Positions 4,218-38,092 of a stretch of DNA of 38,092 nt are shown here, one piece after another; position 1 is the first letter of the stretch; each line of letters starts with the position of its first letter. The stretch spans positions 1-38,092 of IMG/VR virus record IMGVR_UViG_3300009184_000092. One strand, 5' to 3'. The notes under the pieces are model-generated. The model did no database searches. It worked only from the letters and a program-made list of their open reading frames with translations, and was not told where the DNA came from. The DNA comes from a virus. Position numbers and translations under genes: made by a program.

Positions 4218-6722
4218 TTAAGTTTCATTATCGTATTTATGGTTTAGCTTTGGTTCAAAATCCACCATAGGATTAGCACCGTTTTCTTTTTCTTCTTTTT
4301 TCTTTTTGAAAATAGATTTAATTAGTGCTACTTTTTTTTCTTCATCAATAATTTTAGTTTTCACAGAACCAGTTCTACCAAGAGTTGACTTTGAACTCTT
4401 TGGTCCAGGGGAATTAGGACGAGCAACGTATTCAATTTCCTTACGTTTTTCTGAACTGTCTTTATCTTCTTTGAAGCTTCTATGCATATCTGCACGTCCT
4501 AAGTGTAATTTTGGTTGAACGAAATGAGTCCAGTGATATGGATTCGTATCGTAATTAAATCTGCTACCAAAACTAGGCAAAGGTATAGGAATGGGAGTTT
4601 TACCTGGACGTGTTTTACCAACAGGTTCTTTTATAGCAGATTTAACAGGCAACGCCTTTGGTTCAGTTTTTGGCTCTGTCTTTGGTTCAGTTTTTGGCTC
4701 TGTCTTTGGTTCAGTTTTTGGCTCTGTCTTTGGCTCTGTCTTTGGTTCAGTTTTTGGTTCAGTTTTTGGCTCTGTCTTTGGCTTTTCAACTGGCTTTGGT
4801 GTAGGAACTTCATCTGGTATTTTTGGAGTATCTGGTTTAGGAATCTTGTATGGTTCGAAATCTGGTTTTTTACCAGGAGGTAAGACGTTTGGATTCGCAG
4901 GAGTTGGTGGCTTATAATTTGGAGGAGTCTTATAAGGCAAATCTGGAATTGTAGGTCTAGGAGCATCAGGTGGCAATACTGGCCCTCCTGGCTTAAACGG
5001 TTCTTCAAAAGGTTTAGCAGGTTCTGGTTTATCTGGTATTTTTATAGGTTCTTCCGGAGTTTTAACTGGCTCTGGAGTTTTAACTGGTGGCTCGATAACA
5101 GGTGGTGCAGGAGATTTTCCACGCTTTAAAAAATCTTCTATATCTTTTACTATTGTACCGCCCATTTTTTCTATAGCTTCAGCACGTCCACTTTTTTCTT
5201 CTAATTTTTGTTTTCTAACTAATAATATAGTTTCCTTAAGAGATTTTTTCTTAGGTCCAGATTCTTTTTCAATGGCATCTTGATTTGTATAACCAGATGA
5301 TTGAGAAGCTGGAGGTGTAGTTCTTTTTTTGAACTCTTCTCTGTCATTTTCAGTAGCTCTAGTTTCATCTGGTTGCTTAGAAGGTTCTTTATCTGGACTT
5401 TCTGGTTTTACGATATTTTTTGCTACGCTTGCACCAGTTGCAACAATTCCTATTTTTTTTGGTAAAGATGCTGCAGCGTCTAAAGTAGCTGCAGTATATT
5501 GCCCCTTTTCAGCATGTCCATATGCATCAGAAGCAAAACGAGTCGCGGCAACGGGTGGAATAGCATAAGACCCTAAATCAGCAACAGTTGCAGCGCCTTT
5601 CATTCTAGCTTCTGTATTTTCTGGTGTTGCGTTTTGTAAACTTCTTTTAACTGAAGAAGGAACCATTCTTTGTTGTTCTGGTGTAAGTTTAGCGAAGTTT
5701 TCTTTTTTCTGTGCTAAGTTACTAGCAACTTCAGAAGAAGAAGGTAAAGGAGTGTTGAAAAAGTCTCTTACGCCTTTAGCTGCTTTACTAATAGGTTCTT
5801 TTACAGAATTGGGAATAGCTTTTGCTATAGGATCAGCAACAGTTGCGATCGCTTTATCTGTTTTATCAGATATTGTACCCAATCCAGCGCCTATTGCAGA
5901 ACCAGCACCTATTAATTTTGCATTATCTTTTATAGTTTTTGAAATGCTCGTATCTTTAAATTCGTTTAGAGTATCTTCAGTAATTTTACCCTGAAGTGTC
6001 GCACTTGATTTTTCTTTAGCAAATTTTCTCTGATTAGAAACTCTTTCAGATGATCTCTCGTGACCAGGACCAATTTTAGGAACGAAATTTGATCTAAGCG
6101 AATCAAACTGACCGCCCTTGAACTTATCGCCAACGATACCAATAGTTTCCATAACTTCTTCAGTATGTTCTTTTAGCTTCTTTGTATCGCGCGAGTCCAT
6201 GTAATCAGCAACTGTATCTAGATAATCAGCGCCTTTTGTAATTTTTGACTGTACCCAAGCTTCGAGCTCACCTTCGCCATCAAGGCTGGCAATTAAACGT
6301 TTCGCCGCATCAATAGCTGTACGAAGTTCGTTACGAGCCATTTCATACTCATAGTCTTCTCTAACTACATTTTTCTTTTTGTAGTTTTGTTCTCTAACAG
6401 TATTTCTTATAGTATGTTCTAAGTTTATCTTTTTTTTCTTAGGACCGCTTTCGTATTCTGGTCCACGAGGTTCGGTGCTAGTATTTTTAGCAAGAGTGTT
6501 TACAACGTTACCTAATGTTTGTTTATTTTGATCATCAGCTGCTCTACGTTCCGTTCCTGCAGGAGCAGGACGATTTAGATGAACATTCTTAGGAGCAGAA
6601 TCAGTACTTGCGTTTCTGTCCGAAAGAATGTTAGCCATAGATGAAAGACGGTGAGTGTCTTGTGATGCTTCGGCTATTACTTTTTTTATAGAGTTTTCTA
6701 AGCTGATAAACTTTTTTGTCAT
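4218..6722 (-). CDS. Large modular virion protein with (TEPK)10 repeat
   Basis: I start this 834-residue protein at the ATG that overlaps the stop of the Dps-like gene (ATGA), not at an upstream in-frame ATG inside that gene. The first 19 residues end in KKVIAEA, resembling the T4 capsid-targeting peptide with its I-x-E cleavage site. ESGPKKKK follows near residue 91. A helical segment near 135-180 contains LEAWVQSKITKGADYLDTV, a phrase I associate with virion proteins of T4-like cyanophages. After a Gly/Ala segment comes a second module, ETRATENDREEF...NQDAIEKESGPKKK, then a long Pro/Lys/Glu linker with ten perfect TEPK repeats, and a basic tail. It reads as an extended, mostly disordered scaffold or internal head protein. 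No enzymatic motif is visible. Confidence 0.6.
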   Translation of the reverse strand: MTKKFISLENSIKKVIAEASQDTHRLSSMANILSDRNASTDSAPKNVHLNRPAPAGTERRAADDQNKQTLGNVVNTLAKNTSTEPRGPEYESGPKKKKINLEHTIRNTVREQNYKKKNVVREDYEYEMARNELRTAIDAAKRLIASLDGEGELEAWVQSKITKGADYLDTVADYMDSRDTKKLKEHTEEVMETIGIVGDKFKGGQFDSLRSNFVPKIGPGHERSSERVSNQRKFAKEKSSATLQGKITEDTLNEFKDTSISKTIKDNAKLIGAGSAIGAGLGTISDKTDKAIATVADPIAKAIPNSVKEPISKAAKGVRDFFNTPLPSSSEVASNLAQKKENFAKLTPEQQRMVPSSVKRSLQNATPENTEARMKGAATVADLGSYAIPPVAATRFASDAYGHAEKGQYTAATLDAAASLPKKIGIVATGASVAKNIVKPESPDKEPSKQPDETRATENDREEFKKRTTPPASQSSGYTNQDAIEKESGPKKKSLKETILLVRKQKLEEKSGRAEAIEKMGGTIVKDIEDFLKRGKSPAPPVIEPPVKTPEPVKTPEEPIKIPDKPEPAKPFEEPFKPGGPVLPPDAPRPTIPDLPYKTPPNYKPPTPANPNVLPPGKKPDFEPYKIPKPDTPKIPDEVPTPKPVEKPKTEPKTEPKTEPKTEPKTEPKTEPKTEPKTEPKTEPKTEPKALPVKSAIKEPVGKTRPGKTPIPIPLPSFGSRFNYDTNPYHWTHFVQPKLHLGRADMHRSFKEDKDSSEKRKEIEYVARPNSPGPKSSKSTLGRTGSVKTKIIDEEKKVALIKSIFKKKKEEKENGANPMVDFEPKLNHKYDNET
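4234..4241 (-). promoter_or_regulatory. Possible variant late box CATAAATA
   Basis: The minus strand reads CATAAATA, one mismatch from the T4 late consensus, about 35 bases upstream of the 546-residue gene and inside the 3' end of the previous one. The first-position change makes this weaker than the exact boxes elsewhere in the window. Confidence 0.3.
4657..4776. repeat. Ten tandem 12-base repeats encoding TEPK
   Basis: Ten head-to-tail 12-base units alternate between two synonymous forms (on the plus strand TTTGGTTCAGTT and TTTGGCTCTGTC), each encoding one TEPK step on the minus strand. The two forms are arranged irregularly, with doubled copies near the end, as expected from repeat expansion by slippage or recombination. 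The array produces long spurious open frames on the other strand. Confidence 0.95.
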
Positions 6723-7150
6723 TTGGTTAATGCCCTTAGCATCCATCCATGCTTTTCATGGATATCGATTCTGTCTTGAAGGAAGTTAGCAAAACCAACT
6801 TTCTTTTCTTTTTCTGCAGCCTGAAAAGCAGCAGTTAAAGAGGCGATAACCTTTTGATTATCAGCCTCTAGTTTGTTTAGCATATTAATCGCAGTTGGAA
6901 TTTTAGTCTCGTCTTCAATAGTAGCAAGTTCTTTATAACGAGAAAAAGAACCAGGAACATATGAATCGAGCGTACGAATGTGTTCGGCAATAGCATCAAC
7001 TGCTCCCCAAACTTCATTGTACAAACCATCAAGGAACGAGTGATACTGGGCAAAGTTCGGACCTTCGATATTCCAGTGGAAATTGTGAGTCTTAAGATAA
7101 AACGCGAATGTATCCGCGAGTGCTACCTTTGCTGTATCTGCTAATGCCAT
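6719..7150 (-). CDS. Dps-like ferritin-family protein
   Basis: This 143-residue protein belongs to the Dps/ferritin-like group, which oxidises iron with peroxide and can bind DNA in starved cells. The helix-turn phrase THNFHWNIEGPNFAQYH is the Dps signature. The ferroxidase ligands keep family spacing: His25, His37, Asp52 and Glu56 (H-x11-H-x14-D-x3-E, as in E. coli Dps). It is slightly shorter than cellular Dps and lacks the lysine-rich N-terminal DNA-binding tail. It lies within the late virion block and its stop overlaps the start of the 834-residue gene (ATGA). It could be a virion component or protect DNA during infection. Confidence 0.85.
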   Translation of the reverse strand: MALADTAKVALADTFAFYLKTHNFHWNIEGPNFAQYHSFLDGLYNEVWGAVDAIAEHIRTLDSYVPGSFSRYKELATIEDETKIPTAINMLNKLEADNQKVIASLTAAFQAAEKEKKVGFANFLQDRIDIHEKHGWMLRALTK

Positions 7151-7151
7151 T

Positions 7152-7379
7152 TTACTGAGCCTTTTTCTTTCTACCGCGAGTTTTCTTAACTACTTCGACA
7201 ACGTCTGAAACGTCGACCTTGCCGTCTTTGTTTACGTCAGCAACCTTAGTTACTTCTGCCTTTGCTTCGGCGATAACTTCATTAACAGCTTCTTCTGCTG
7301 TTTCTTTTTTGGTCACCATCTTATAAAGAGCATAACCAACGCCGCCGATAATTACTAATCCGATAATTGTCTCAATCAT
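7152..7379 (-). CDS. Small membrane protein with dockerin/EF-hand calcium motif
   Basis: This 75-residue protein has one N-terminal transmembrane segment (about residues 2-20, IETIIGLVIIGGVGYALYKM), an acidic helix, and then DVNKDGKVDVSDVVEVV. That last stretch matches the calcium loop of a dockerin type I or EF-hand repeat (D-x-N-x-D-G-x-V-D-x-x-D). It ends with a basic RGRKKK tail. It sits one base from the Dps-like gene. The domain order suggests a membrane-anchored protein with a calcium-dependent binding face. Its role is unknown. Confidence 0.6.
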   Translation of the reverse strand: MIETIIGLVIIGGVGYALYKMVTKKETAEEAVNEVIAEAKAEVTKVADVNKDGKVDVSDVVEVVKKTRGRKKKAQ

Positions 7380-7397
7380 TTCATTTCTCCTTTAGTT

Positions 7398-8615
7398 TCA
7401 CTCTTCATCGCCACCGCTTGAGTTTCCGCTTTTTCCTGGTGGGTGCTTTTCTATCTTACCGCTTGCCATTCTAATGGACATCATTGGTGTAGGAACTGAT
7501 GTTCTTTTGCCAGTAGAACCGAGTGGTACAGATAATTCGTTTATTGTTTCTTCACAATGCCACTTGCGTAACGCTTTATTTATTCTTGAATCGGGGTCGC
7601 GAGCTGTTTTAGCCGAAGTCAAACGTTTCTTCATACCGCCCATACGAGCACAGAATGACTTGCGACGATTAGCTGCCTTTGATCCAGGCTTTAGTTTTGA
7701 TGGTTCCGTTGTAACAGCAGTTTTTAACTTGCTACCTGGATTCTCGCGGCGGTATGCGTCTACACCAGCCTGAGTCATTCCACCATTTTTATTTTTATAT
7801 TTTGAATCCGACCAATCTTCTTTAACTACAGCTTTTGATGTTTTAGTTGCAGGTGCTGTAGTTTTAGTTCTTGGGGTGATCATATTTGCTGAATCAAAAG
7901 TTCTCTTTTCGGAAGCTTCCCCAGTTGAAACTTTTGGTTCTCTGCTCTTAATATCAGCTTGAGTTTTAGCTTCGGTTGAAGTTTTTAAAAGAGCATCTAT
8001 CTTTTTGTTTCTTTCATCGTCATCTTCATTCAAAGCTTCTTTAACAACCTTTTTAATTGTTTGTAAAGAGCTCTTTTGTTTATGAGCTAATTTTTGGCCA
8101 GGAGTTTCGTCAGCATATACTTTAGAAGCAGAATAAGTTCCATCGAATCTAGAAGCTGGATCGTTTGGATTTTTTGATTGCTTTTCAAAAGTTTCGAATG
8201 ATTCGTTTTGAGAAGCCTTAAGAGCTTCTGGTGTCGGTGCACCTTTTTCTCCTGGCTTGCGCATACGTTCGCCAGACCCACGGGCAATACGTCTACGCTT
8301 TGCCCAAATGTTATCCCACAAGCCTCTTTTGCCTTCTTCGATCATAAGATCCTCGTCCAAGTCTGCTGCGAAACCGCCAGCGATAAATGAGTTGACACGA
8401 TCAAACGCGAATTGATCAGCAGTTTGACCGAATGATTCGTTCCAAATAGAATACCCACGGCGATATACTTCTTCGAGAATATCGGTCGATATACCTGATT
8501 TTTGTGATTTTTTGTATAGGGAGAGTTTTTGTTCGTTAGTGAGAACTACGACAGATCCTGCAGTTTGCTCTGCAAAAACTAGCTGAGGACCGAAAGATTT
8601 AAATTTCTTTACCAT
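7398..8615 (-). CDS. Virion-associated protein with DUF6321-like C-terminal region
   Basis: The product has 405 residues. The N-terminal 90 residues contain LTNEQKLSLYKKSQKSGI and a Y-R-R-G-x-x-I-W segment, an arrangement I recall from T4-like phage structural genes. The middle is charged, with a helix SLQTIKKVVKEALNE that resembles the N-terminal helices of the two modular proteins downstream. The C-terminal third has GGMTQAGVDAYRRENPGSKLK, then RRKSFCARMGGM and a terminal KALRKWHC. I recognise this as the DUF6321-type phage domain of unknown function. A perfect late box lies about 70 bases upstream. The family call is from memory and not database-checked. Confidence 0.6.
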   Translation of the reverse strand: MVKKFKSFGPQLVFAEQTAGSVVVLTNEQKLSLYKKSQKSGISTDILEEVYRRGYSIWNESFGQTADQFAFDRVNSFIAGGFAADLDEDLMIEEGKRGLWDNIWAKRRRIARGSGERMRKPGEKGAPTPEALKASQNESFETFEKQSKNPNDPASRFDGTYSASKVYADETPGQKLAHKQKSSLQTIKKVVKEALNEDDDERNKKIDALLKTSTEAKTQADIKSREPKVSTGEASEKRTFDSANMITPRTKTTAPATKTSKAVVKEDWSDSKYKNKNGGMTQAGVDAYRRENPGSKLKTAVTTEPSKLKPGSKAANRRKSFCARMGGMKKRLTSAKTARDPDSRINKALRKWHCEETINELSVPLGSTGKRTSVPTPMMSIRMASGKIEKHPPGKSGNSSGGDEE

Positions 8616-15444: not shown

Positions 15445-15543
15445 CGAAATATGGTTGGGCGGAACCCCACCGAATGCTCCCAACTATTCCTAGACCCTTC
15501 TCAGTCTCGTGCCTCATACGCATATAGCGTAAAACATATTTCG
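15445..15543 (-). ncRNA. Candidate structured late small RNA
   Basis: These 99 bases are closed by a perfect 9-bp stem (CGAAATATG at 15445-15453 with CATATTTCG at 15535-15543). Inside are three arms: TACGC/GCGTA with a 5-base loop (15517-15531), AGAC/GTCT (15492-15507), and GTTGGG/CCCAAC (15454-15459 with 15479-15484) that carries an inner CGG/CCG pair. On the minus strand, an exact late box ends about seven bases before the closing stem and an intrinsic terminator starts nine bases after it, so the whole unit looks like a discrete RNA of about 140 bases. The arm order recalls a tRNA, but there is no T-loop, anticodon arm or CCA. I do not recognise the family. Confidence 0.5.
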
Positions 15544-15544
15544 A

Positions 15545-15745
15545 TCATTTATTTATATTAGAAGTCACACTTTTTAAAATAAAAGTTGGAGAAAAACCAT
15601 CAAAACCACCACCTAAATTCAAATGTCGCATGAATTCTTTAGCGTCCTTATGGTCCTTAAAGGTTTTGATGATTTGATTAGTGGTTGTTTCCACTACATT
15701 ATAGATAGAACAATTCTTTTCGCCTTGTACTGTCTTATAATTCAT
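15545..15745 (-). CDS. Small hypothetical protein, 66 residues
   Basis: This soluble 66-residue protein reads as an alternating beta/helix fold: CSIYNVVETTTNQIIKTF (strands), then KDAKEFMRHLNLGGGFDGF (helix and Gly turn). The pattern is common in small phage proteins that modify a target by strand addition, but I do not recognise it. It lies directly downstream of the small membrane protein gene in the replication transcript. Confidence 0.5.
   Translation of the reverse strand: MNYKTVQGEKNCSIYNVVETTTNQIIKTFKDHKDAKEFMRHLNLGGGFDGFSPTFILKSVTSNINK
15550..15557 (-). promoter_or_regulatory. T4-type late promoter box TATAAATA
   Basis: An exact TATAAATA on the minus strand overlaps the last codons of the 66-residue gene. 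The predicted start falls at or just before the closing stem of the candidate small RNA, and no protein gene starts between this box and the terminator at 15410-15435. Confidence 0.6.
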
Positions 15746-22795: not shown

Positions 22796-22820
22796 AGCTG
22801 GGGGCGAAATTCCCCCAGCT
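22796..22820 (-). terminator. Intrinsic terminator after the Hsp20 gene
   Basis: AGCTGGGGG (22796-22804) and CCCCCAGCT (22812-22820) form a perfect 9-bp stem with a 7-base loop. On the minus strand it is followed by TTTT. It ends the Hsp20 transcript 25 bases after the stop codon. Confidence 0.8.
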
Positions 22821-25772: not shown

Positions 25773-25846
25773 TGGCTGGGGGACCTGGATTCGAACCAAG
25801 ATTGACCGAGTCAAAGTCGGTAGTTCTACCATTGAACTATCCCCCA
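25773..25846 (-). tRNA. tRNA-Gln (anticodon UUG)
   Basis: This 74-base tRNA on the minus strand has acceptor TGGGGGA/TCCCCCA, D arm GTTC/GAAC, anticodon arm ACCGA/TCGGT with TTG in the loop (complement of 25812-25814), T arm CTTGG/CCAGG with loop TTCGAAT, and encoded CCA. All stems pair, with one G-T wobble in the T stem. It reads CAA (and CAG by wobble), and lies between two small early genes in the same direction. Confidence 0.95.
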
Positions 25847-26729: not shown

Positions 26730-26845
26730 TGACCAACATTTTTACCAACTTTCTTACGGTCGTAAGAACCTTTGCCCTTCTTAGAGCGAACAACTCGCGG
26801 ACGATACTTCGGGGAGTGAACGTCCTTCGCGATTACGTTACGCAT
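26726..26845 (-). CDS. Small basic protein, 39 residues
   Basis: A 39-codon frame with AGGAG eight bases before the ATG encodes a very basic peptide: MRNVIAKDVHSPKYRPRVV, then RSKKGKGSYDRKKVGKNVGH. The M-R-N-x-(V/I)-A-(K/R)-D-(V/L)-x-(S/T)-P-K-Y-R phrase resembles a tiny conserved protein of T4-like phages. The charge suggests nucleic-acid or ribosome binding. The stop lies in the -35 of the next promoter. Confidence 0.6.
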   Translation of the reverse strand: MRNVIAKDVHSPKYRPRVVRSKKGKGSYDRKKVGKNVGH

Positions 26846-28908: not shown

Positions 28909-29268
28909 ATGACTCGCCTTCGCATTCGTGTTAAGAACTCTATGTATGAGCGACGCGATCGTTTCGCGTACCCTATCGCTGAGTTCAACGAATATGAGGG
29001 CGAAGTCGCGCCGAAGCCGAAATGGGTGGGCGACGACTCTTTCTGTCTGACTACAGGCGACGCGAACTTTCCCTTCCGTGTTTTGCGTAAGGAAGATATC
29101 GTCTGTGGTTGGCAGATCCCCGTCGCCCATTCTACTAATCTACGCTCTCGTTCTTTTAAAGTCAAGCAGTATGTCGTAACCGAGCAGAACAATCGCTGGT
29201 CCTGTTCGTGTGTTGGCTTTGGCTACCGTAAGAAATGTTCTCATATCGATATCGCTCAGGCTGCTTGA
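28909..29268 (+). CDS. SWIM-type zinc-finger protein
   Basis: The product has 119 residues. The C-terminus carries CSCVGFGYRKKCSHI, a C-x-C-x8-C-x-H array (Cys99, Cys101, Cys110, His112) that fits the SWIM zinc finger used in DNA or protein binding. The N-terminal part is beta-rich and basic. AGAGGTAAG lies seven bases before the start. It directly follows the AAA+ gene, so the pair may work together as a motor and a targeting finger. Its TGA stop lies within the -35 of the next promoter. Confidence 0.7.
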   Translation: MTRLRIRVKNSMYERRDRFAYPIAEFNEYEGEVAPKPKWVGDDSFCLTTGDANFPFRVLRKEDIVCGWQIPVAHSTNLRSRSFKVKQYVVTEQNNRWSCSCVGFGYRKKCSHIDIAQAA

Positions 29269-36863: not shown

Positions 36864-37988
36864 ATGGCTCGTCGTCCTGGACTTATTGCAAAAAAAACAA
36901 AGAAGCCTCGCGTTACTCGTAACGAAGCGTATCTTGTTAATTTGAAGTATCTTGGCGACGAGCCCGTTTTCACCAAGCCTCTTACAGAAGGCGATTATGC
37001 ACGTGCTTTGAATTGGTACAATTATATGTGCGACAATTCAGATGCTCGCGAGTATATCGAAACTTATCTTAAGAATACAAATCGTACAATCGAATATAAG
37101 AAATTTAAAAAGGTTCCTGACGTTTGGATTCCTACAACTGCCGCTTGGGTTTGTAGGATGATGTCGAAGGGCTATAACCTTCCTGATAGCTCGAAACCAT
37201 ATTTTGAAAAGCGTCTTAAAGAAACTCTTTCTAAGGCAAAGGAAGAAGATAAGAGCGTAGAAGTTGATACTCCTAAAGTTTCAATTCAAGATCGTATTAA
37301 AGAGAAAGCCCAAGATATCATCGGCGATATTGAAGAGCTGATCGATAGGGGCGAAACGTTTTCTCTTTATGAATGGCTCAAGGCAAAGGAAGTGCCAGCC
37401 CTATACGCTCCTATGATCGTCAGTAAATATGCTCCGTGGTTGGACGAGCTTATCGAAGCTTTGGAAGGTTCCGACGAACAACTTAAAGAAGCGTATAAGG
37501 GTCTTACAAAGAAACAGCTTCGTGAGCGAGTGGAATTCTTTAGTAAGTTGATTGAAGACTCCGAACGTTATGGTAACGTAGCTAAGAAAACTAGAACTCC
37601 TCGTAAGCCACGTGCAGTTTCCGTTGAAAAGAAGTTGAAGGGTCTTAAGTTCCAAAAAGAAGATAACACCTTCAAGATCGCTTCTGTTAATCCAGAAAAA
37701 ATTATCGGTGCTCAGGAACTTTGGACGTTCAATACAAAGAATAAAGTCCTTACTGTTTTCCGTGCTCTTGATCGTGGCGGTCTTCAGGTAAAGGGTACGA
37801 GTATTATCGGTTACGATGAAAAGAACTCTGTTAGCAAACGAACTGGTCGCAAGCCAGAAGAGTATGTTAAGAGAGTTTCTGATGGCGGTAAGATCGTTCT
37901 TCGTAAACTTATGGACGATCTTAAGAACGAAGCTACTTTCGCTCATCGCATTAACGAGAACACTATCCTACTGAAGATTGTAACTTGA
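36864..37988 (+). CDS. Large basic hypothetical protein, 374 residues
   Basis: This Lys-rich protein starts three bases after the GIY-YIG-like gene. The N-terminal 100 residues (RRPGLIAKKTKKPRVTRNEAY..., ALNWYNYMCDNSDAREYIETYL, VPDVWIPTTAAWVCRMMSKG) look helical and recall conserved proteins of T4-like phages. A central helical region with EWLKAKEVPALYAPMIVSKYAPWLDELIEAL follows, and then a basic, beta-rich C-terminal domain (LWTFNTKNKVLTVFRALDRGGLQVKG, RKPEEYVKRVSDGGKIVLRKLMDDL). Nucleic-acid binding is likely from charge. The TGA stop lies in the tmRNA promoter's -35. Confidence 0.6.
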   Translation: MARRPGLIAKKTKKPRVTRNEAYLVNLKYLGDEPVFTKPLTEGDYARALNWYNYMCDNSDAREYIETYLKNTNRTIEYKKFKKVPDVWIPTTAAWVCRMMSKGYNLPDSSKPYFEKRLKETLSKAKEEDKSVEVDTPKVSIQDRIKEKAQDIIGDIEELIDRGETFSLYEWLKAKEVPALYAPMIVSKYAPWLDELIEALEGSDEQLKEAYKGLTKKQLRERVEFFSKLIEDSERYGNVAKKTRTPRKPRAVSVEKKLKGLKFQKEDNTFKIASVNPEKIIGAQELWTFNTKNKVLTVFRALDRGGLQVKGTSIIGYDEKNSVSKRTGRKPEEYVKRVSDGGKIVLRKLMDDLKNEATFAHRINENTILLKIVT

Positions 37989-38018
37989 CTTTAAAGGTAT
38001 AGTAGGGTATTATAAATA
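37985..38018 (+). promoter_or_regulatory. Dual early/late promoter for the tmRNA piece
   Basis: TTGACT (37985-37990), a 17-base spacer and TATTAT (38008-38013) form a sigma70-type promoter, and an exact T4 late box TATAAATA (38011-38018) overlaps its -10. The predicted start, near 38021, coincides with the expected 5' end of the acceptor piece. The -35 includes the stop codon of the 374-residue gene. Confidence 0.75.
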
Positions 38019-38020
38019 TT

Positions 38021-38092
38021 GTGCTTAGGTCGTTGAGGCGTATGGAATAAACGTTTCGGACGTGGGGGCAGTACCCACCGCCTCCACCATAA
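38021..38092 (+). ncRNA. ssrA: Permuted (two-piece) tmRNA, acceptor piece; gene truncated by window end
   Basis: The RNA ends GTTTCGGAC, a T stem GTGGG/CCCAC (38062-38066 with 38074-38078) with the 7-base loop GGCAGTA, then CGCCTCC, discriminator A and CCA (38087-38089). This is the 3' end of tmRNA. The T at 38083 is U70, half of the G3-U70 pair that alanyl-tRNA synthetase recognises. There is no tag reading frame or 5' tRNA half upstream, because the promoter lies only 50-60 bases before the T arm. The order therefore fits a circularly permuted gene in which the acceptor piece comes first. The coding piece should follow beyond the window. The T loop lacks the standard TTCRA. Confidence 0.75.

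Follow-up and report, generated by a model that had tools for sequence, protein, structure and literature searches.

Acceptor half of a circularly permuted tmRNA gene at the end of a T4-like phage fragment that also encodes an ArfA homologue

The window, a stretch of 38,092 bases that constitutes the whole of the viral fragment IMGVR_UViG_3300009184_000092 (listed as linear in IMG/VR; end repeats absent), ends inside a tmRNA gene, of which it retains the acceptor half. Identification of this end as the acceptor half of a circularly permuted tmRNA gene of the alphaproteobacterial type is well supported by covariance models and by comparison with related loci. In addition, the window encodes a homologue of the alternative ribosome-rescue factor ArfA. 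The explanation preferred here, to which we assign a probability of about 0.9, is that the phage carries its own permuted tmRNA, which would rescue stalled ribosomes and tag their products with the help of host SmpB, and that the ArfA-like protein would serve as a second rescue factor. The window is a fragment of a T4-like phage, as indicated by strong matches to phage families for a DnaB-like helicase, a UvsX-like recombinase, a DNA polymerase, an Hsp20 and an endolysin, and the host is probably an alphaproteobacterium.

A search with cmscan showed that the last 112 bases of the window (nt 37981–38092, plus strand) matched positions 1–122 of the 355 positions of RF01849 (alpha_tmRNA) with 54.2 bits and an E-value of 1.7e-12, the match being cut off at its 3′ side by the contig end; the gathering cutoff of this model is 50 bits, and the Infernal run that the earlier note had proposed as a check was therefore positive. 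The last 65 bases (nt 38028–38092) matched positions 1–66 of the 213 positions of RF04321 (tmRNA_permuted), again as a 3′-truncated match, with a score of 47.0 bits that just equals the cutoff of 47 bits. ARAGORN did not call the acceptor piece, because the gene is truncated. All details that had been listed from the letters alone, namely a tmRNA 3′ end with a T arm, an acceptor strand and U70, together with a promoter at which the piece starts, were present in the sequence (Table 1), and the proposal that a phage carries a permuted tmRNA of the alphaproteobacterial type gained support from both the Rfam matches and the complete genes of relatives. The acceptor half is situated directly behind the upstream gene, leaving no room for a tag frame in front of it, and the complete order of the gene is visible in the relatives.

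Table 1. Features at the tmRNA end of the window and the ArfA gene
Feature	Position (nt)	Strand	Basis or remark
ArfA homologue (alternative ribosome-rescue factor A), 39 aa	26726–26845	-	PF03889, 35.2 bits (cutoff 25.5)
Upstream gene, 374 aa	36864–37988	+	phrog_11903 (E 7.4e-77), a family without assigned function; conserved neighbour used for finding relatives
Sigma-70-like promoter TTGACT-17-TATTAT	37985–38013	+	10 of 12 consensus bases; TTGACT at 37985–37990, 17 nt, TATTAT at 38008–38013
TATAAATA, exact T4-type late promoter motif	38011–38018	+	Sequence; overlaps the -10 box
tmRNA acceptor piece (core), ending in ACCA	38028–38089	+	RF01849 and RF04321; 61/62 identical to the viral copy in L015; mature 5′ end approximate
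CGGAC	38057–38061	+	Read from sequence
T arm, GTGGG / loop GGCAGTA (38067–38073) / CCCAC	38062–38078	+	Sequence; Watson-Crick stem in viral pieces
Acceptor stem 3′ strand CGCCTCC, U70 at 38083	38079–38085	+	Sequence; partner strand GGGGGCG in relatives
ACCA	38086–38089	+	Read from sequence
Spacer start, first 3 nt (TAA), gene cut here	38090–38092	+	TAA is the commonest spacer start (89/251 genes, a count that still took the 39 bacterial loci L191–L229 as viral)

For comparison, viral contigs were scanned with patterns for the acceptor and coding pieces, and bacterial genomes with the acceptor pattern, yielding 231 distinct viral and 110 distinct bacterial genes (the loci L191–L229 being contigs of bacterial genomes). 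The T loop of the window, GGCAGTA, had been regarded in the earlier note as non-standard and in need of explanation; it proved to be the loop of the family itself, GGCRGUA. It was the commonest loop in the viral genes (157/231) and occurred in 28 of the 110 bacterial genes, the remaining bacterial genes having GGCGGTA, but the bacterial set had been fetched with a pattern that permitted these two loops only, and independent support for the loop comes from the alphaproteobacterial consensus of Rfam, GGCgGUA. Two pairs of the T stem that were left open by the search pattern were Watson-Crick pairs in all of the 59 distinct viral pieces (59/59), in eight combinations.

Relatives of the upstream protein were found at 16 viral loci. 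At two of these, L082 and L083, whose proteins share 67% identity with that of the window, a complete permuted tmRNA gene with the tag ANDNNAYEMALAA directly follows the gene, and at five others (L042, L085, L088, L089 and L090) a complete permuted tmRNA gene lies close to the homologue. In L086, an almost identical acceptor piece follows downstream at a distance of a few genes and is likewise cut by the contig end. No tmRNA was present next to the same upstream gene in L084 and L087, and thus the tmRNA is not essential to the group. The relatives possess the partner strand GGGGGCG, with G at position 3 opposite U70, and a coding half with the 5′ acceptor strand and pseudoknots. Within the window, no coding half was found elsewhere by covariance-model search, nor was one found by ARAGORN across a head-to-tail join of the contig ends; a GGGGGCG at nt 22800 was rejected as the partner strand since it sits in an unrelated inverted repeat. 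By analogy with the relatives, the sequence beyond the contig end is predicted to comprise a spacer of about 60–100 nt, a GGGGGCGAAA strand and a tag frame of the ANDN...AA type, and the phage would thus have an intact coding half.

Distant relatives of the phrog_11903 gene occur in phages of Sinorhizobium, Rhizobium, Ochrobactrum and Caulobacter, and also in phages of Stenotrophomonas and Pseudomonas. Rhizobium phage RHph_I1_18 (MN988519.1, nt 15520–15713) has a permuted tmRNA match of 60.1 bits within a tRNA cluster; the record carries no RNA annotation over the match, and the annotation of a nearby tRNA-Ile mentions SsrA. A tRNA-Gln (TTG) gene was located at nt 25773–25846 of the window (minus strand), and tRNA-Gln (TTG) was also observed near the tmRNA in L015, L024, L064, L070 and others. 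A 119-aa protein with a CxC...CxH ending is encoded at nt 28909–29268 (plus strand), and its apparent homologue, as judged by eye, lies directly 3′ of the upstream gene in L086 (nt 7104–7463).

A single sigma-70-like match such as that of the window is weak when taken alone, as 0.8 are expected in shuffled sequences, and weight is given to it because such sites are conserved in the relatives. Sites with at most two mismatches were located upstream of 161 of 217 viral tmRNA genes (16.8 expected), versus 6 of 107 bacterial genes (3.0 expected). The overlapping motif TATAAATA, which we take to be the late-promoter motif of T4, was present upstream of 140 of 217 viral genes, where 3.1 were expected, and of none of the 107 bacterial ones. 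The two putative promoters, one sigma-70-like and the other of the T4-late type, should provide both early and late start sites. In PMC9004378, the T4-type late motif is given as TATAAAT.

The predicted 39-aa ArfA homologue matches the conserved KKGKGSYxRK core of PF03889 and can be aligned to ArfA chains in ribosome structures (E 7.9e-5), but it is shorter than bacterial ArfA. Its gene is 11 kb away from the tmRNA and shares no operon with it. ArfA was found in 6 of 19 related records (5 above the cutoff) and then in 3 of 30 more (2 above the cutoff). A known trait of ArfA is repression of its expression by tmRNA by way of a truncated, non-stop mRNA. The frame in the window ends with a normal stop and contains a perfect 8-nt inverted repeat (nt 26751–26768), but its overall folding did not exceed that of shuffled sequences (z 0.26) and gave no sign of a hairpin through which the tmRNA might control the ArfA mRNA. 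In Ochrobactrum phage OC (L097, nt 5311–5508), an annotated ArfA gene lies three genes after a homologue of the upstream gene of the window, and no permuted tmRNA was found in this phage. A phage-borne ArfA has been described in pelagiphage HTVC027P (gp30; PMC12753301), whereas the copy in the window is accompanied by a phage tmRNA; no literature report of one phage with both was found. As the window encodes an ArfA homologue besides the tmRNA, one phage has two rescue systems and appears to secure ribosome rescue in duplicate, once with tagging and once without it.

A recognisable tag was present in 217 of the 231 distinct viral genes, the nearest relatives of the window included; 209 of these tags start with ANDN and 214 end with LAA, VAA or IAA. 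Several of the genes lacking a recognised tag were truncated or were merely missed by the simple pattern used. A search that detected SmpB in 10 control genomes found none in the window or in 25 related records, among which were several complete genomes of phages; the phage RNA would therefore use the SmpB of its host. Transcription would begin shortly after the 374-aa gene, at the overlapping early-type and T4-late-type promoter, giving a transcript in which the acceptor piece, the spacer and the coding piece follow one another. The acceptor stem, together with a helix formed between the two spacer ends, would keep the two halves joined. Trimming by host RNases may then leave two RNAs paired with each other, which the alanyl-tRNA synthetase of the host would charge by way of the G3-U70 pair. 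With SmpB from the host, the charged RNA would reach ribosomes that stall on broken mRNA in the course of infection and would add a degradation tag of the ANDN...LAA type to the stalled products. Most likely, the supply of phage tmRNA, both early and late, would keep ribosomes free when breakage of mRNA is high, with ArfA as a non-tagging backup. From the acceptor piece alone, two roles had been suggested, namely rescue or retagging at stalled ribosomes and competition with the host tmRNA; plain rescue and tagging appears to be the better of these, while the host-like ANDN...LAA tag, retained by almost all of the phage relatives, makes competition with the host tmRNA, or blocking of it, less likely.

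For phage Melnitz, it has been proposed that the main role of the tmRNA is the tagging and degradation of host proteins, the amino acids of which would flow into phage synthesis (PMC9004378). The endings of the tags, LAA or VAA as in degradation signals, agree with such a role, but the late-type promoter motif suggests expression during the production of phage proteins, and a second rescue factor that adds no tag points to recycling of ribosomes as the aim. Moreover, tmRNA works on stalled ribosomes, and to our knowledge it has no preference for host over phage proteins; degradation of host proteins is thus improbable as the main role. Still less probable is that the RNA is a tag-less decoy which blocks host trans-translation. 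In the tmRNA database paper (PMC11915505), a phage-encoded relative from mycobacteriophage DS6A is cited as a tag-less form that inhibits host tmRNA, and the tag region of the window gene lies beyond the end of the record; however, the relatives of the window gene, unlike the DS6A form, are nearly all tagged with ANDN...LAA/VAA/IAA sequences, the nearest ones included, and the shortage of tags in several of the others is accounted for by truncation or by the simplicity of the pattern. Rescue with tagging thus remains the preferred reading.

With regard to the origin of the gene, the 62-nt acceptor piece differs by one base from its nearest viral copy (L015), no other contig with an exactly identical piece being found, and shares at most 47 of 62 positions with bacterial copies. 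In a quickly built tree that combined 297 genes with the window piece, the position of which rests on 62 columns and lacks strong support, the bacterial label required only 4 changes as compared to a mean of 80.7 after shuffling. Thus, the permuted tmRNA genes of phages appear to form largely their own lineage. Like the Caulobacter-type two-piece tmRNA of alphaproteobacteria (RF01849), they possess the same order of halves, the T loop GGCRGTA, the acceptor stem with U70 and ANDN tags, but they stand apart on the tree and differ in the T4-type late promoter motif, in longer spacers and in a longer spacer helix. That the contig end is mis-assembled host DNA, or a host tmRNA fragment acquired by a temperate phage at its integration site, is the least credible alternative and was rejected. 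In its favour, tmRNA genes frequently serve as sites of integration, shared sequences of this sort are frequent points of assembly breakage, and the contig does break off within the gene. Against it, the piece is much nearer to viral than to bacterial copies, TATAAATA precedes 140 of the 217 viral genes and none of the 107 bacterial ones, the same gene order recurs in independent contigs, and the order-conserved relatives carry the complete gene instead of a 3′ fragment.

Two-piece tmRNA in phages has already been published for Methylophilales phage Melnitz (MZ577095; PMC9004378), which infects OM43, and the window gene is a member of this known class. The two phages share a permuted tmRNA of the alphaproteobacterial type with an early-type promoter, their acceptor pieces are 94% identical over 35 nt, and SmpB was likewise not found in the Melnitz genome. 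A tmRNA of this kind is also carried by another cultured phage, Mesorhizobium phage Cp1R7A-A1. They differ in the genes upstream of the tmRNA, in the link of the Melnitz tmRNA to a glutamine riboswitch reported in PMC9004378, and in ArfA, which was not found in Melnitz. The Melnitz spacer contains an unannotated reading frame, no gene being annotated within the tmRNA in the published record, while the window record stops 3 nt into the spacer.

Spacers of the viral genes were longer than those of the bacterial genes, with a median of 92 nt versus 33 nt and with more than 105 nt in 89 of 231 versus 1 of 110. Among the 47 distinct viral spacers exceeding 150 nt, 41 had a closed ATG frame filling at least 60% of the spacer, versus 1.6 expected in shuffles. 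These nested frames fall into many families. The largest encodes a membrane-type peptide of 38–44 aa (MKNPLV...WSICADITLLAGIIYLVFF), located between the tmRNA halves in L032, L054, L234, L283, L287, L256, L259 and others, with a pN/pS of 0.20 over 19 sequences; for the 38-aa protein, tblastn gave no match in phage isolates. Two other families had a pN/pS of about 0.2, and several of the small proteins encoded in spacers of the relatives thus appear to be under purifying selection, as judged from substitution patterns. The 489-nt spacer of L052 (nt 1784–2272), the acceptor piece of which belongs to the same close group as that of the window (56/62), encodes a 144-aa homing-endonuclease-like protein (phrog_655, E 1.1e-14). 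The spacer of L374 encodes a 62-aa protein 66% identical to the product of the gene just upstream of the Melnitz tmRNA; this small gene precedes the tmRNA in Melnitz (Melnitz-1; L100, nt 2236–2436) and is found inside the spacer in L374 and L335. The nearest relatives of the window, of which the named ones are viral, have spacers of 57–98 nt without genes.

The two ends of the spacer can pair with each other, the helix having a median of 11 bp in viral genes, with at least 9 bp in 183 of 219 (1.5 expected), versus a median of 5 bp in bacterial genes; such a helix would hold the halves together regardless of what the spacer contains. On the tree, the presence or absence of a nested frame changed 33 times among the viral genes, at least 18 of these changes being required by branches with good support. 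The tmRNA database paper (PMC11915505) describes spacers that contain a tRNA-Ala gene or a repeat element, its available text making no mention of protein genes there, and no report of protein genes in the spacers of phage tmRNA was found in the literature.

It is fairly likely that the split tmRNA of phages serves as a nest for small protein genes sharing the tmRNA promoters, and that the lineage of the window pairs this tmRNA with a phage ArfA in a double rescue programme. It is thereby suggested that the spacer which split tmRNA genes discard offers phages a niche for small genes overlooked in annotation, the Melnitz record included. The combination of ArfA with tmRNA and the genes nested in the spacers of the relatives are the findings that most merit further study. 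Ribosome rescue is usually viewed as bacterial housekeeping; with tmRNA and ArfA on one fragment, the dependence of phages on a rescue capacity of their own becomes testable.
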